The translations under genes were made by a program, and so were the position numbers. The notes beneath the pieces are model-generated. The model searched no databases. It was not told where the DNA came from and saw nothing but the letters and a program-made list of their open reading frames with translations. This document shows, one piece after another, positions 1,313 to 28,887 of a stretch of DNA of 31,142 bases (the first letter of the stretch is position 1; each line of letters starts with the position of its first letter). Origin of the DNA: a virus; the IMG/VR virus record IMGVR_UViG_3300025110_000075, positions 1-31,142 of that record; one strand, 5' to 3'.

Positions 1313-1642
1313 TTATGAGATGTGGGAAAGAATCAATCCTTCCCTAAGTAAATTCAATCCAAAACGGGCTCTCATCCAAGAGCGCCAATGGTTACTTCCT
1401 TTGTCCTGATTACAACAGGTACACGCTGGTACGACATTCGATGAAATGTCTTCACCCCCAAGAGAACGAGGATGTACGTGATCAAGTGTGAGTTCATGTA
1501 ATTCATAAGTTATTCCGCAATAAACACATGTGCATCCGAAGTGTTCTTTGATGCTGCGCCTCCAAAGGCGCTTAGCTTCAGGAGACGTCATGGTTATTAG
1601 GTTGTATAGGTAGTGATCAGGAGTTGGAAGTAAGGGGGTCAT
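1313..1642 (-). CDS. HNH endonuclease with zinc-binding cysteines
   Basis: Small HNH nuclease of the McrA-like/phage type. Visible in order: CVYC (C39, C42), LDHVHPRSLGGEDISSNV (D54, H55 and N69 of the ββα-metal core) and ACTCCNQDKGS (C74, C77, N78). The two Cys pairs would hold a structural zinc and H55 is the expected catalytic base. At 109 aa it is a stand-alone domain, as in many phages beside terminase genes, where HNH proteins can be needed for cos or concatemer processing; it could also be a free-standing homing endonuclease. Start ATG 1642 overlaps the upstream stop (ATGA); an internal Met at residue 18 is an alternative. Confidence 0.92.
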   Translation of the reverse strand: MTPLLPTPDHYLYNLITMTSPEAKRLWRRSIKEHFGCTCVYCGITYELHELTLDHVHPRSLGGEDISSNVVPACTCCNQDKGSNHWRSWMRARFGLNLLREGLILSHIS

Positions 1643-4465: not shown

Positions 4466-6913
4466 TTAGCGTGCGCGGGCAGTTTTGAACGGATGCTCAG
4501 CAAATGCCGCATAGACATAGGTGTTGCCACTGCCGTTTCTCGCAATGTGATCAGTCCTTTGTTTAAAGCCATTGCTTAAGAAATCAACTCCGTAATCAGC
4601 ATGAGTACCTTCCGCATTAACACTATTTGGTTTCAAAGCATCATCAGCCACATTTAATGGACTTCTTGTTGCATCAACTAGCTGCCAGTCATTAGAACCG
4701 CCATCTGATCTCTTCGTAAGCAACCATTTCACTTTAAACCCTGTATAAATAAACGGACCATCAGTTGAACCGTTGCCGGTGAACTTGCCAAAGGATGAGT
4801 AGCCTTCAACACTACTCCACGCATACATCAAATGACTCTTAGTGTTGATATTAGTATCAGATCCAAGATGAATTAGGCTTGAGGTTGGAAGCTGGCTCCA
4901 CCTGTTTGTAGCATTGCCACCACCAAAATCCGTTGTTGTAAATTCGCCATAAGCCAATCCCATCGAAGAATGATAGATAGCCCAGTTCTCGCTAGCCACA
5001 TCAAGTGTTTTGAAAATAATAAAATCTGGAGCTGCATTAAGACCGTGTGCAATACTTCCAGATCCGCCGCTTGAGGTTCCGGTGTAGGTTAAAATCGAGA
5101 ACCCAGCAGACGTATTGGCTCTCCCGGTTGAAGCAATACTTGCTCCATTAGTTCCAGCACTATTACTAAATGTCGAACCAGCATCCCAAGTCCAAGCTGC
5201 ATATTCAGCATTGTTTACGTTGACATTGCCGCTACCTGTGTGATCTCCATTTGAAGTATTAATAGTAAATCCGTCGCTATTAAAAGCTGATAAGCCACGC
5301 CCGGTTGGCTCAGTCTTTTCAACATTTGTATGGCTTGAACCTATATGCTTATATTGTCCACGCACTTCGTCATACCAAGCATGATGGCCTGGGTCATCCA
5401 TTCGTTTTATCCAAACTAGGTCTGGACTAAAAGACAAGCCTGAAATAGTATTAGTGTTAGAACCATTGCCATCATAGGTTTTTATATCCATCGCAGTCGA
5501 ACCATCGGCAATCGGCGGGTTGTCAAGGTTCTTCGTGCAGAGTGACTTGAAGCCTGTTGGGGGCGTGTGTGCAAATGGACGTTGGCCAAAGTTTATAATA
5601 ACTTTGTTATGCGTTCCAGTATGCAAACCAACAGCAGGGACGAGCCTAGATGCCGATACACTGGAATGAGCAATACCCAGTGATGATCCGTTTTTATAGA
5701 AAGTAAGAGTGTTTGCATCACAATCAAGTGCTACGCCAATGACATCATTAGTTGTCACCGTAGAGGTATAACTACTACTTACAGTTGAACCATTATGGTA
5801 AGTATTTCCTCCAACGTCCATTGACCAACTCGTACCAGTACCTGACCCAAGCCAAGGAAGACCAGTACCTGAAGTATCACGATTGAACTCATAATCATCT
5901 GCATCAGCCACTCCCCAACGGGCAATAGTCCCGTTAATAGTTGGTAGCTTCAGCTCCCAGTACCATTTTCCACTGCTCAATGCAAAGGTGGATCCGCAGC
6001 TAGTCCACTGACCACCAGAAGCTGTTCTTTCAATCTCTAGATTTCCGTTCGACAAAGTAGGGGTTGCGTTCGGTGATATAGCAAGAGGGTTCAACGTCGC
6101 ATAGTTGCCACCGTTATTGCCGGACGCTTCGTAGTTGGTTGGGGAGTCGATCAGGCTGTCATTTCCTGCACCAGATGCAACAGAAAGGTAATTAACCGTC
6201 CAAGTATTGCTTTTGCCGCTGCTATCCGTTCCAAGCGCAGCCTTGCTGCTGTTGTCGGAGAAGTCCAGGTGGAAGCCGTTGGTGCCATACGTTCCAGCGT
6301 ATGCAATCGGCACCCACAGGTTGTCGGTGTTAGTTTCTCCAAAATCTGTTGGCGCTAATGCTTGACCATCGATCAGAATGCACTCAGCTAGGAAACCATT
6401 AAAGCAGTCAGCATCGTTTCGCCCAATACGATGATCAACAGTATTATTGATCTGTAAGACTGCATTTGGTGGCGGCCAGTTATTTCCAGCCGTTAATGCT
6501 TGATCTACACCATTAACATATACTTTGACCCTGTTTGTTTGAGTAGCTTGTGTTGTGTCAACCGCTATAACAACATGATACCAGGCACTAGGATCTCTAA
6601 ATACTGCATTAGTGTAGACATAAAAACTATTGCTTCCACCAGCCTCTTCTACTTGAATCTGGTCATTGTTAAATGAAATAGAAAAATAATTACTTCCAGG
6701 TCCAACAAACATTAAACGTTGCGTTCCGCCTAGCTCACTGCGTTTAGTCCAACCGCTCCAGGTAAATGTTTTGCGGTTTCCAGCAGCGGATGGGGTACGG
6801 TTTAAATTACTTTGGTCGGCATCGTTAAACCGCAAGCTGCGTTCAATCTTGAAACCAGCAGCGCCGCCAGATTGACCGGCGGCACCTGCTAATACGTTAT
6901 TAAATATTGGCAT
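4466..6913 (-). CDS. 815-aa LamG/SPRY adhesin (tail fibre or tailspike)
   Basis: Likely receptor-binding virion protein. Domains in order: N-terminal Gly/Ala-rich adaptor (1-25); LamG/concanavalin-like domain about 25-185 (FTWSGWTKRS, WYHVVIAVDT, VKVYVNGV); a linker with DNLWVP and FHLDFSDNSS; a SPRY-like domain about 300-445 (GKWYWELKLP, VIGVALDCDANTLTFYKNG); then a C-terminal region with the phage-tail pattern SFSPDLVWIKR…GHHAWYDEVRG…AWTWDAGS, a motif often seen in cyanophage fibres. No enzyme active site is evident. It lies after the T7-type fibre gene, so the virion probably has two adhesins. It starts 6 nt after the upstream stop. Confidence 0.88.
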   Translation of the reverse strand: MPIFNNVLAGAAGQSGGAAGFKIERSLRFNDADQSNLNRTPSAAGNRKTFTWSGWTKRSELGGTQRLMFVGPGSNYFSISFNNDQIQVEEAGGSNSFYVYTNAVFRDPSAWYHVVIAVDTTQATQTNRVKVYVNGVDQALTAGNNWPPPNAVLQINNTVDHRIGRNDADCFNGFLAECILIDGQALAPTDFGETNTDNLWVPIAYAGTYGTNGFHLDFSDNSSKAALGTDSSGKSNTWTVNYLSVASGAGNDSLIDSPTNYEASGNNGGNYATLNPLAISPNATPTLSNGNLEIERTASGGQWTSCGSTFALSSGKWYWELKLPTINGTIARWGVADADDYEFNRDTSGTGLPWLGSGTGTSWSMDVGGNTYHNGSTVSSSYTSTVTTNDVIGVALDCDANTLTFYKNGSSLGIAHSSVSASRLVPAVGLHTGTHNKVIINFGQRPFAHTPPTGFKSLCTKNLDNPPIADGSTAMDIKTYDGNGSNTNTISGLSFSPDLVWIKRMDDPGHHAWYDEVRGQYKHIGSSHTNVEKTEPTGRGLSAFNSDGFTINTSNGDHTGSGNVNVNNAEYAAWTWDAGSTFSNSAGTNGASIASTGRANTSAGFSILTYTGTSSGGSGSIAHGLNAAPDFIIFKTLDVASENWAIYHSSMGLAYGEFTTTDFGGGNATNRWSQLPTSSLIHLGSDTNINTKSHLMYAWSSVEGYSSFGKFTGNGSTDGPFIYTGFKVKWLLTKRSDGGSNDWQLVDATRSPLNVADDALKPNSVNAEGTHADYGVDFLSNGFKQRTDHIARNGSGNTYVYAAFAEHPFKTARAR

Positions 6914-25204: not shown

Positions 25205-25983
25205 CGGAAGGTCACATCAGATCGTTCAAGTTTTTCAAGGACATCGTTGCGGTAAGCAGGATCACGGTCATACCGTGGATCAGCAATAGCAGAAACAACT
25301 TCTTCCTGACTACGGAAGACATCACTACTATTGTTGGCAGCTTTACCAGTCAGCATTCGTCCTTCAAATCCATTACTAGAGTCGTACTGTGCTTTCAATC
25401 CATTGACCATCATTTGAATAGCATCAGAATTACCAGTAGCAATGATGTCGTCGTAAGCTTCAATCTGTGATTCGGACATGTTATTACTTGCCCAATCAAT
25501 GACTTTATTATATTCAGCATCACCACCAACCGAGTTCTTAATAGCATTTACTTCACTATCAGAAAGCTCGACTGGCTCAGCAGCTTCGGGTTGAGGTGCA
25601 TTGGCTTGCATCTCCATGTATGCCTGGACAAGGTCTTGGCTACTCATCTCTGAGAACTTAGACATCATCTCTTTAGACAACTCACCCTTCTCTGCATACT
25701 CAGTAGATGCATCAGTGATTAAAGTTTGAGCAGGGGAAACTTCAGGCTCTTCTGTTTCTTCTTGGGAAGGCTCAGCTTCTCCCTGCTCATCTTCAGAACT
25801 TTCTCCAAGTTTCTTTTGGAGTTCAACGTACGCTTTTTCAAGGTCTGCGGCTGACTTATATTTACCAGCCAACAGTTGTTCCTGTTGTTCTTTAAGCTCC
25901 TGACCTACCTGAAGTGAGTCCTGTTCTTCATCAGTAAGTACATCAGCTTCAGGGGTGGGATCGTAGGAAAGTGTTTCTGCCAT
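25201..25983 (-). CDS. Head scaffolding protein (T7 gp9-like)
   Basis: 260 aa, strongly acidic and helical, as scaffolds are. Segments include LTDEEQDSLQVGQELKEQQE, LLAGKYKSAADLEKAYVELQ (a typical scaffold N-terminal helix) and the C-terminal YRNDVLEKLERSDV, probably the basic end that touches the capsid protein. It lies directly after portal (TAATG overlap). In T7 it is followed by capsid; here hli, barrel and psbA genes intervene. Confidence 0.9.
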   Translation of the reverse strand: MAETLSYDPTPEADVLTDEEQDSLQVGQELKEQQEQLLAGKYKSAADLEKAYVELQKKLGESSEDEQGEAEPSQEETEEPEVSPAQTLITDASTEYAEKGELSKEMMSKFSEMSSQDLVQAYMEMQANAPQPEAAEPVELSDSEVNAIKNSVGGDAEYNKVIDWASNNMSESQIEAYDDIIATGNSDAIQMMVNGLKAQYDSSNGFEGRMLTGKAANNSSDVFRSQEEVVSAIADPRYDRDPAYRNDVLEKLERSDVTFR

Positions 25984-27530
25984 TATTCAGTAGGTTGTTC
26001 TTCGGGTTGTCCCATCATGGCTTGTTCAGCCATTGGTGTTTTTGCAAGTTGACCAGCCTGACCAACAAGTGATTGACCAATCTGATCTTGCTGTTGTTGC
26101 TGCATTTCTTGTGCCATCTGCTCTTCAGTCTTAATAAGATTGAGAGCTTCAATACCTTGTGCAGCAGCAAGACGCTTGATGACCTCAGAAGGATTGATGT
26201 ACTTCATCAACGCTTCAGGTCCAAGTGTCTGTGCAATTGTTCCCATAAAGTTTGCAAGACTTTCTCGGTCTTGACCACGACCCAGCGCATTCACACCAGC
26301 AACAATCTGTGGTCGAACAAACTCCTTAGGGATCTTGGGTAGCTGTCCATTCCTTTGCAGAACCATCATGATCCTGTTCAGGTATGGGACAAGGAACTCA
26401 ACGGTCAGCAGACTGAAGAGACCGCCAAGCTGTTGCTCTAGTTCGAGCTGTGTGAGGCGTACCTCTTCTGCTGTGGTTCGTTCTGACTGTCGAATGTTGA
26501 GTTGCAGGAAGGCTTCACCAATACGACGTTCGATTTGCTGCGCCATGTTGGCGGCAGTTGCGAAGTCTGCTGTCTTACCAACCTGTACGACAGAAACATC
26601 ATCAGGTCTTCCCTGAATGATGGCACCGTTACCCGCCTTAGCGAGTGAGCCTGGCTTGGTAGTACTAGATGGTGACACCATAAATACAACCTTTGCAGCG
26701 GCTGCACTGCCTTCGATGAGTGCCTGGCTGAGTGAGTCAAGTGCACGGAAGTCACCAAGGAATTCCTCAACACGACCCCTGCCATAGTCCTCACCATCAA
26801 CAGTGTTGAACCTAAGAGGCAGCCAAGGGCTTGCATTCTTAGGAGCGGTGCTACGGCTACCAGGAATAACCTTGTCAAAGACCTCCTGGTGCCACACCCA
26901 GCGGCCATTATCTAGCTTGACATGGGTATAGACATCGCATTCTTTTTCGTTGCTCTGAGAGCCATCTACAACGCTCTTGTCGTCGTAACCAATCTCACCT
27001 AGCAACTCTTTGCTGATCATTTCTTTCGTAACGATCTCAAGAACATTGCCATTGCCGTCACGGTTAATAACAAACCGATTCAATGGGAAGTTCTTCAGAC
27101 CATCTTTGCCCATAAAGACAAGGGCGTTACCAGAGACAATCAAATGCTTGATTGCCTGGTGTACTACAACGCGGTCATTAGAAGCGGCGATGTAATCCAT
27201 GATGATCCGCTCAATCTTGCTGAACGAAAGGTCCAGTTCACTGCGGATCTCTGGGGAATCCATCTCACCCAACTTATCGTCACGTACCTGTAGCTTGAAG
27301 AAGGAAGTCTGGGGTGGTAACAACGCCAGCATCAGTTTGGATGCCAGCGTTACAACAGCTTTAGCTCCTACGGATTGCCAAGGAAGAGGCAACCGCTTGC
27401 GGGAGTTAACTGAGGAGGTGTCTTCAGTAAGCAGGTACGGCAACGTCAGCTCAGAACAATCAACAGCAGTACTCAGAAAAGAGTTGCGTTGAGATGAGAG
27501 CCGGTCGTAGCACATACGTGCACTAGACAT
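25983..27530 (-). CDS. Portal / head-tail connector protein (T7 gp8-like)
   Basis: 515 aa (T7 gp8 is 536). Conserved segments: LTLPYLLTEDTS near residue 30, PLPWQSVGAKAVVTLASKLM LALLPP, TTAEEVRLTQLELEQQLGGL (the long helix region), and a Gln/Met-rich C-terminus (EMQQQQQDQ, MMGQPEEQP). Forms the dodecameric portal vertex. It overlaps the small upstream protein by 8 nt. Confidence 0.96.
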   Translation of the reverse strand: MSSARMCYDRLSSQRNSFLSTAVDCSELTLPYLLTEDTSSVNSRKRLPLPWQSVGAKAVVTLASKLMLALLPPQTSFFKLQVRDDKLGEMDSPEIRSELDLSFSKIERIIMDYIAASNDRVVVHQAIKHLIVSGNALVFMGKDGLKNFPLNRFVINRDGNGNVLEIVTKEMISKELLGEIGYDDKSVVDGSQSNEKECDVYTHVKLDNGRWVWHQEVFDKVIPGSRSTAPKNASPWLPLRFNTVDGEDYGRGRVEEFLGDFRALDSLSQALIEGSAAAAKVVFMVSPSSTTKPGSLAKAGNGAIIQGRPDDVSVVQVGKTADFATAANMAQQIERRIGEAFLQLNIRQSERTTAEEVRLTQLELEQQLGGLFSLLTVEFLVPYLNRIMMVLQRNGQLPKIPKEFVRPQIVAGVNALGRGQDRESLANFMGTIAQTLGPEALMKYINPSEVIKRLAAAQGIEALNLIKTEEQMAQEMQQQQQDQIGQSLVGQAGQLAKTPMAEQAMMGQPEEQPTE

Positions 27531-27783: not shown

Positions 27784-27965
27784 TAGAATTGCATTCGTTG
27801 TTTGAACCATTCGACGACATGACGTTGTCCAGCTCTATACATGAGCTGACTTAGGTCATCGCCAGGAGTGGGGTTAACAGGTGGAAAGATTTCTTCGAGT
27901 TCTTCGTAGATCTGCTCAAGGTTTGGTCCGAGGATTGCCTCAAGCGTATTGGGGGAGGTTGACAT
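27783..27965 (-). CDS. 60-aa small protein before the pre-portal gene
   Basis: Likely start ATG 27965 (MSTSPNTLEAILGPNLEQIY), continuing EELEEIFPPVNPTPGDDLSQ and LMYRAGQRHVVEWFKQRMQF. Acidic first half; the C-terminal part GDDLSQLMYRAGQRHVVEWF looks like a short helical module seen in small T7-like phage proteins. Starts 26 nt inside the end of nrdB exon 2. No function recognised. Confidence 0.75.
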   Translation of the reverse strand: MSTSPNTLEAILGPNLEQIYEELEEIFPPVNPTPGDDLSQLMYRAGQRHVVEWFKQRMQF

Positions 27966-28212
27966 TTGAGTGCTCAAAGAAAGCTGGCATACGAGCTGCT
28001 TTTGTTTCGGAAAGCTCAGGGGCTTTGCCTTCATACATCAAGCGATCACTAGAATCCAGCCAAAATTTTTTACTTAGATATTTATCGGCGTGCTCACCAA
28101 GAGGTTGCATTACCCAATTGATAGTTGCCTTCCTGAGTTTATCAAGAGAAGGACTGATGTTATACCCCAGCTCAGTATGAACCAGACTATTGGCAGCCAC
28201 ATGAATTTGTTC
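27940..28212 (-). CDS. nrdB: nrdB exon 2: ribonucleotide reductase small subunit, C-terminal part
   Basis: Second exon of the interrupted nrdB. It starts directly at the 3' splice site and reads EQIHVAANSLVHTELG, giving E148 and H151 of the second ExxH metal-ligand pair once joined to exon 1. The C-terminus ends ARMPAFFEHSNVNLPQYA; a C-terminal tail with the aromatic residue is usual in class I small subunits for docking to NrdA. The open frame could also be started by TTG at 28215, but that TTG is intron sequence, so it is not an independent gene. Stop TGA-type end at 27940 precedes the 60-aa gene. Confidence 0.9.
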   Translation of the reverse strand, partial: EQIHVAANSLVHTELGYNISPSLDKLRKATINWVMQPLGEHADKYLSKKFWLDSSDRLMYEGKAPELSETKAARMPAFFEHSNVNLPQYA

Positions 28213-28446
28213 CAAGTGTTATCGTAAAGGCTCTTTATCCTTTACTTCTGCATCTTTACCATTGATGCAGGTCAGACTATATCTTCACCAAAAGGTGCTA
28301 GGCACTCGTGTCTCCATTACTGTGTTGCCACTCGGGAGTTAGTCGTTGAACCTTCCAGCTTGTGGGCTGGCTTGGCTGCTGATTGTCCAATATAGGAGGA
28401 GTTCCAGCAATTCACCTAGTTTTTTATAGTAGGGACCAACAAATCA
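28213..28446 (-). ncRNA. Group I intron (234 nt, no ORF) in nrdB
   Basis: Self-splicing intron. Core elements on the minus strand: P1 formed by exon AGTAGAGAT with intron GTCCCTACT, including the U·G pair at the 5' splice site; P3 CTAGG/CCTAG; P7 GACTA (28344..28340)/TAGTC (28279..28275) within GGTTCAACGACTA and AAGATATAGTC, the conserved R and S blocks; AATCAGCAGCC as Q; P8 CACC-TTTT-GGTG; P9 TGCATC/GATGCA; a further hairpin GTAAAGG/CCTTTAC; terminal G before exon 2. Splicing joins GAT|GAA in frame and removes the TGA that would end exon 1. It holds no endonuclease gene. Confidence 0.95.
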
Positions 28447-28887
28447 ATCTCTACTTATGTCTGCGGAAACTGTTCTCATACCAGCGTCACCATTAAAGCG
28501 AAAGAATGGTAAAAGAACGAAGAAGATCGCACGCTCGGCAACAAGTGCTTTGGTGATCGTGTGATCTGGATGTGCCTCCCAAGCGGCTTTAAGCCTAAGG
28601 GCTTCTGCCTCAGCTTTTTCATCAACGCCGTAAGCATTGGCGATGTAACCAAGTGCGAGGTCGTGATTCTCTTCGTCCTTGACATTGGACAGTAGGAGTT
28701 CCCTTGCATTACTCGGTACGTCAGAGGAGAGAGCATTAGTAATAAAATCTCCCACAGGTAGTTCCATATGCCTCAATGCAAGTGCACGGAAGATCGTTGC
28801 TTCCGCACCTTCTTTGCATGTACCGGCAGTTGTCTGGACAGGAGTCCATTTTCTTTTTCGATTGATTAGTTTTTGATACGGGTTCAT
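28447..28887 (-). CDS. nrdB: nrdB exon 1: ribonucleotide reductase small subunit, N-terminal part
   Basis: First 147 residues of a ferritin-like class I small subunit (237 aa after splicing). Metal-ligand candidates in order: E42 (HMELPVGDF), E72-x-x-H75 (DEENHDLAL), E118 (LVAERAIFF), then E148/H151 from exon 2. The residue four after H75, where the radical Tyr normally sits, is Leu79. Reading on past the 5' splice site gives a TGA immediately, a false C-terminus of ISRD. ATG 28887 overlaps the nrdA stop (ATGA). The product pairs with NrdA to make dNTPs for phage DNA. Confidence 0.93.

Follow-up and report, generated by a model that had tools for sequence, protein, structure and literature searches.

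An optional group I intron, predicted to be self-splicing and carrying no open reading frame (ORF) of its own, appears to interrupt nrdB of T7-like cyanophages and to have been moved horizontally among divergent cyanopodoviruses, a reading to which we assign a probability of about 0.9. It was located in the window, i.e., the whole analysed stretch of 31,142 bases from an IMG/VR virus record, which was recognized as a T7-like cyanophage by its portal, capsid, and psbA genes together with nrdA/nrdB on the minus strand. The Rfam model RF00028 (Intron_gpI) aligned end to end (model positions 1–253) with window positions 28456–28248 on the minus strand and scored 71.9 bits (E = 1.3e-16), for which the gathering cut-off is 50 bits, and the Rfam scan of the window gave no other match. 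Judged from its sequence, the segment 28213–28446 is a group I intron. A preliminary description had proposed that nrdB is interrupted within an ExxH metal-binding motif by a compact group I intron lacking a homing endonuclease gene, and had suggested such a covariance-model search; both the match and the borders bear this out. The motif concerned is the second ExxH metal-ligand motif, and the minus-strand orientation of the gene had not been given in that description. The features are collected in Table 1.

Table 1. Features of the interrupted nrdB gene and its intron (window coordinates).
Feature	Positions	Strand	Basis
nrdB exon 1, codons 1–147, ending ...ISRD	28447..28887	−	phrog_6799 positions 1–147; tblastn of the spliced protein to phages
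nrdB exon 2, codons 148–237 and stop, starting EQIHVAA	27940..28212	−	phrog_6799 positions 148–238; tblastn
Group I intron without its own ORF	28213..28446 (234 nt)	−	Rfam, 71.9 bits; identical borders in 11 related contigs
Omega-G, terminal intron guanosine, 3′ splice site TTG/GAA	28213..28213	−	Sequence; invariant in every intron-bearing locus
P1, exon AGTAGAGAT with internal guide sequence, U·G at 5′ splice site	28428..28455	−	Rfam, alignment
P10, guide AUUUGUU can pair with exon 2 AACAAAU, 7 bp	28438..28444 with 28211..28205	−	Read from sequence
P3, CUAGG/CCUAG	28415..28419/28302..28298	−	Rfam, alignment
P4-P5-P6 domain, outer P6 helix with 3 covarying pairs	28350..28409	−	Alignment
P7, guanosine-binding helix, GACUA/UAGUC	28340..28344/28279..28275	−	Rfam, alignment
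P8 hairpin CACC-UUUU-GGUG; one pair covaries among relatives	28286..28297	−	Alignment
P9 hairpin CUGCAUC...GAUGCAG	28248..28270	−	Rfam, alignment
Terminal hairpin (P9.1/9.2-like) GUAAAGG...CCUUUAC, 2 covarying pairs	28224..28245	−	Alignment

The spliced NrdB matched phrog_6799 (RNR class Ia beta) over positions 1–238 of 238, while the unspliced ORFs each matched only their own part of this family (1–147 and 148–238). These ORFs, 28444..28887 (147 aa) and 27940..28215 (91 aa, TTG start), are the two false genes that a gene caller had been expected to report. When the spliced 237-aa protein was compared with uninterrupted cyanophage NrdB, as had been advised, at least 80% of its length was matched in 56/56 phage records, all of them uninterrupted, at 35–90% identity. 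For P-GSP1, S-CBP4, and P-RSP2 the DNA match fell into two pieces but spanned only ~710 nt, indicating that no intron is present there. Exon 1 ends in GAT opposite the invariant G of P1 and the intron ends in TTG, so that removal of 28213–28446 generates a GAT/GAA join and a single open 237-aa frame running through ISRD/EQIHVAA, as predicted from the outset. The neighbouring joins GATT/AA, GATT/GA, and GAT/AA, which were inspected by hand, lead to a stop or a frameshift, leaving GAT/GAA as the join that works. The first in-frame codon of the intron is a stop in all 12 copies, namely TGA in eleven including the window and TAG in contig L182, where both bases of the stop were changed with the P1 pairing kept. 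Nearly the whole intron sequence is ribozyme. The suggested lack of a homing endonuclease gene was also substantiated, as no endonuclease ORF was found in the introns of 234–237 nt and the longest stop-free stretch in any frame is 38–68 codons.

The interrupted gene probably encodes the beta subunit of a class I ribonucleotide reductase of the Cyano SP type, as judged from the ligands compared at D147, E148, and H151; the residue numbers E148 and H151 given earlier were correct. In this type of beta subunit, D lies in the second sphere and the first-sphere ligands are E, E, H, E, E, and H (PMC6370689). In P-SSP7, whose NrdB is 78% identical, D146 is a second-sphere residue and E147 and H150 are first-sphere metal ligands (Table 3 of PMC6370689), which correspond to D147, E148, and H151 of the window. 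The intron hence falls between two metal-sphere residues. The surrounding motif ISRDEQ[IV]H is nearly invariant across 83 intronless loci, though its codons vary. Cyanopodovirus NrdB (window 27940–28887, spliced) gave no Pfam family match at E 0.01 despite its identity as a class I reductase beta subunit, and Pfam-based surveys would miss it. Furthermore, annotation of the intron-bearing contigs is expected to yield two false genes in place of NrdB, which would then be lost from surveys that use ribonucleotide reductase as a marker gene.

Pattern scans detected the same ORF-less intron (234–237 nt) with the same position and borders in 11 further IMG/VR contigs (L162, L163, L177, L179, L180, L181, L182, L183, L184, L185, and L186), all of whose introns exceeded the Rfam cut-off. 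L179/L180 and L184/L186 are near copies, giving 10 distinct intron-bearing loci including the window. The comparison set thus consisted of 12 intron-bearing loci, most of them on fragments, and 83 intronless loci. The first intron pattern scan had found other group I introns but none in nrdB. At least 600 intronless or other relatives were seen in the nrdB scan, indicating that the intron is rare. One intron-bearing cyanopodovirus contig, L193 (NYUL01000043.1), which gives the same pattern hit as L183, is filed within the gammaproteobacterial MAG CPC44, where it was most likely misbinned. A second compact group I intron was observed in the major capsid protein gene of two intron-bearing records (L196, G005 25772–25998; L197, G010 43967–44197); these lie at two different sites, scored 98.3 and 109.6 bits, and were only distantly similar to the nrdB intron by BLAST. 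Elsewhere in the window, positions 4466–6913 encode an 815-aa protein with Laminin_G_3, SPRY, and DUF7483 domains that adjoins the tail genes and is probably a fibre or adhesin.

Ten distinct introns were aligned on ten helices (P1, P3–P9, and the last hairpin, with P7 as a pseudoknot) comprising 56 named pairs. Pairing was kept in 560/560 cells of this alignment and fell to 25–44% when the partners were slid by one to three columns. The core pairings drawn in the preliminary description (P1 with its U·G, P3, P7, P8, and P9) were accordingly all present and fully paired in the ten introns. Six pairs were altered on both sides, and these compensatory changes were located in P6, P8, and the last hairpin only. 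P3, P4, P5, and P7 showed no variation among the aligned copies, hence no covariation, so that their support is the Rfam model. The U of the exon at the 5′ splice site pairs with an invariant G (alignment column 20/31), and P1 of the window contains one A·C mismatch absent from most relatives. The partner of the guide in P10 occupies +2 to +8 of exon 2 in a register shared with P1, and its GUU/AAC part is invariant among relatives. The single-sequence fold was also more stable than shuffled sequences (z = −2.3). That two ORFs are split by an in-frame stop, as in a broken gene, might suggest an assembly artefact or an nrdB pseudogene without any intron. The same insert with the same borders, however, occurs in the 11 other contigs, whose exons are intact and give a continuous frame when joined, and together with the Rfam match and the compensatory changes this makes such an explanation extremely improbable.

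We infer splicing, including that in vivo, and its chemistry from these sequence features. The ribozyme would fold in the transcript, in which P1 sets the 5′ splice site at the U·G pair, P7 binds free guanosine, P10 positions exon 2, and the last nucleotide of the intron, a G, specifies the 3′ splice site. The intron would then excise itself and GAT and GAA would be joined, restoring the 237-aa NrdB. In unspliced RNA, the stop codon directly after exon 1 would end translation at the splice site and may thus have an insulating role. Translation affects intron splicing in T4, as stated in the title of a 2007 article by Sandegren and Sjoberg that PMC3653736 cites.

The divergence of the intron was compared with that of its host gene among nine distinct phages. 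The mean divergence was 6.2% (0.062) for the intron, 17.0% (0.170) for nrdB codon positions 1+2, and 43.1% (0.431) for position 3, and the intron value was below that of positions 1+2 in 35/36 pairs. Part of this low divergence is ribozyme constraint. In the nrdB tree of 94 sequences the intron-bearing phages are scattered, and the intron state requires 7 changes, at least 6 of which are forced by well-supported branches, although such changes do not tell gain from loss. The nearest relatives of the window, L005 and L002, are intronless. Intron-bearing L181 and intronless L027 show no difference in the 240 nt upstream of the site and a single one in the 150 nt downstream. The low intron divergence, scattered tree distribution, and this near-identical presence/absence pair indicate that horizontal spread, with no homing endonuclease encoded by the intron itself, is most likely, as far as can be read from the sequences. 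An old intron of this phage group, inherited vertically with many losses and kept similar by ribozyme constraint only, would fit the location of variable intron columns mainly in loops and compensated stems, and the correlation between intron and nrdB distances (Mantel r = 0.69, p = 0.0016). This correlation makes some vertical descent likely, with transfer mostly among relatives or mixed with descent. Constraint alone, however, does not reverse the order of distances, which differs between intron and host gene: the window and L163 differ by 1.7% (0.017) in the intron and 35.9% (0.359) at nrdB position 3, whereas L181 and L179 differ by 4.3% (0.043) and 11.4% (0.114), and the L179 intron is nearer to the intron of L184 (2.6%), a more distant phage, than to that of L181 (4.3%). 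We thus regard purely vertical inheritance as unlikely, and horizontal movement would account for the pattern of divergence and distribution.

If the same intron was moved horizontally among divergent cyanopodoviruses at one conserved site, its movement must rely on a trans factor or ordinary recombination, since it encodes no endonuclease. The predicted HNH gene at 1313..1642 had been put forward, as speculation, as a trans mobiliser, but it is also found in nearly all intronless cyanopodoviruses, and its presence is thus uninformative on this point. HNH matches occurred in five of the 12 intron-bearing records, only in those long enough, and HNH genes are common to intronless phages too. A free-standing endonuclease beside nrdB could instead cut the intronless gene at the insertion site, similar to the collaborative homing of F-CphI for S-PM2 psbA. 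PF02945 Endo VII-type genes indeed adjoin nrdB in the intronless phages S-B28, S-SRP01, and DSL-LC07 and contigs L025 and L071, and their Endo VII motif is also the one used by F-CphI (PMC6083498), so that these genes are candidates for such a partner. The 12 intron-bearing records, many being fragments, gave no match to PF02945 or GIY-YIG, although the PF02945 search does recover the genes of S-B28, S-SRP01, and DSL-LC07, and nuclease and intron were linked in no record; this route is accordingly held to be doubtful. The Endo VII-type genes of intronless cyanopodoviruses encode 93–156 aa (L157 3710–4150, L155 3656–4126, L187 3704–3985, L025, and L071), and their position varies: some phages have the gene inserted immediately downstream of nrdB, others have it upstream, on the nrdA side.

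The sequence AGTAGAGAT was observed before the site in 10/10 distinct intron-bearing loci versus 17/83 intronless loci (Fisher p = 1e-6, kinship ignored), a preference that could reflect a requirement for the guide sequence or, equally, short co-conversion. Movement by reverse splicing into RNA, followed by reverse transcription and recombination, would demand a target that already matches the guide. This agrees with the guide match at all intron-bearing sites and with the existence of matching empty sites (AGTAGAGAT/GAACAAAT in 13/83 intronless loci), but the intronless sisters L002, L004, and L005 lack AGTAGAGAT, a pattern that looks, suggestively only, more like short co-conversion; we consider reverse splicing rather improbable. 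Compared with these three sisters, the window differs at 9, 9, and 8 of the 27 nt before the site and is near-identical further out and downstream. We do not claim that these 27 nt were co-converted, as 6% of close intronless pairs also show 8 or more differences there. It is also conceivable, though not probable, that the ribozyme-only intron is a parasite persisting by frequent transfer via an endonuclease of co-infecting phages that is unlinked to the intron.

The element is of a known kind; new here are the 11 further contigs with the same-site intron, its structural conservation, and the pattern of divergence and tree distribution. No mention of a cyanopodovirus nrdB intron was found in the part of the literature covered, and the word "intron" is absent from the paper on the Cyano SP reductase (PMC6370689). 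Marine T7-like cyanophages thereby become a further group of phages in which a ribonucleotide reductase gene contains a group I intron, the site here lying inside the radical-cofactor motif. They also offer naturally occurring loci with the intron (12) and without it (83), one near-identical pair among them, in which the spread of an endonuclease-less intron can be studied.

Phage introns have been described in T4 nrdB, Twort nrdE (PMC3653736), T4-like cyanophage psbA (PMC6083498), and the Pf-WMP3 polymerase; nrdF was not in the SPbeta region examined. The T4 nrdB intron (group IA, I-TevIII) had been cited as a case of parallel targeting. It is likewise a group I intron in phage nrdB, but the likeness extends to the gene and not to the site: the T4 intron must be placed somewhere from codon 207 to codon 222, upstream of its ExxH motif (E247-x-x-H250), while the cyanophage intron is inside ExxH, so that the target site is not the same, and T4 was rejected as a parallel insertion. 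The profile comparison of NrdB with T4 and with solved structures gave only weak matches around this motif. The T4 intron, 598 nt long, has or once had a gene for an HNH-type endonuclease, in contrast to the 234-nt cyanophage intron without an endonuclease gene. The psbA intron of S-PM2 likewise interrupts a metabolic gene of a cyanophage and contains no nuclease gene (PMC6083498), but S-PM2 is T4-like and F-CphI adjoins its psbA, whereas none of the 12 intron-bearing records (mostly fragments) linked such a nuclease to the nrdB intron. The intron of PMC3428280 shares both the intron class and the T7-like cyanophage type, but it encodes a nicking HNH endonuclease and resides in another gene of a phage with a freshwater Phormidium host. 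The Twort nrdE introns, one of which lies near conserved ribonucleotide reductase residues (PMC3653736), and the Bastillevirinae introns, which were shown to splice (PMC11878797), are similarly phage group I introns, though located in other genes of other phage families.
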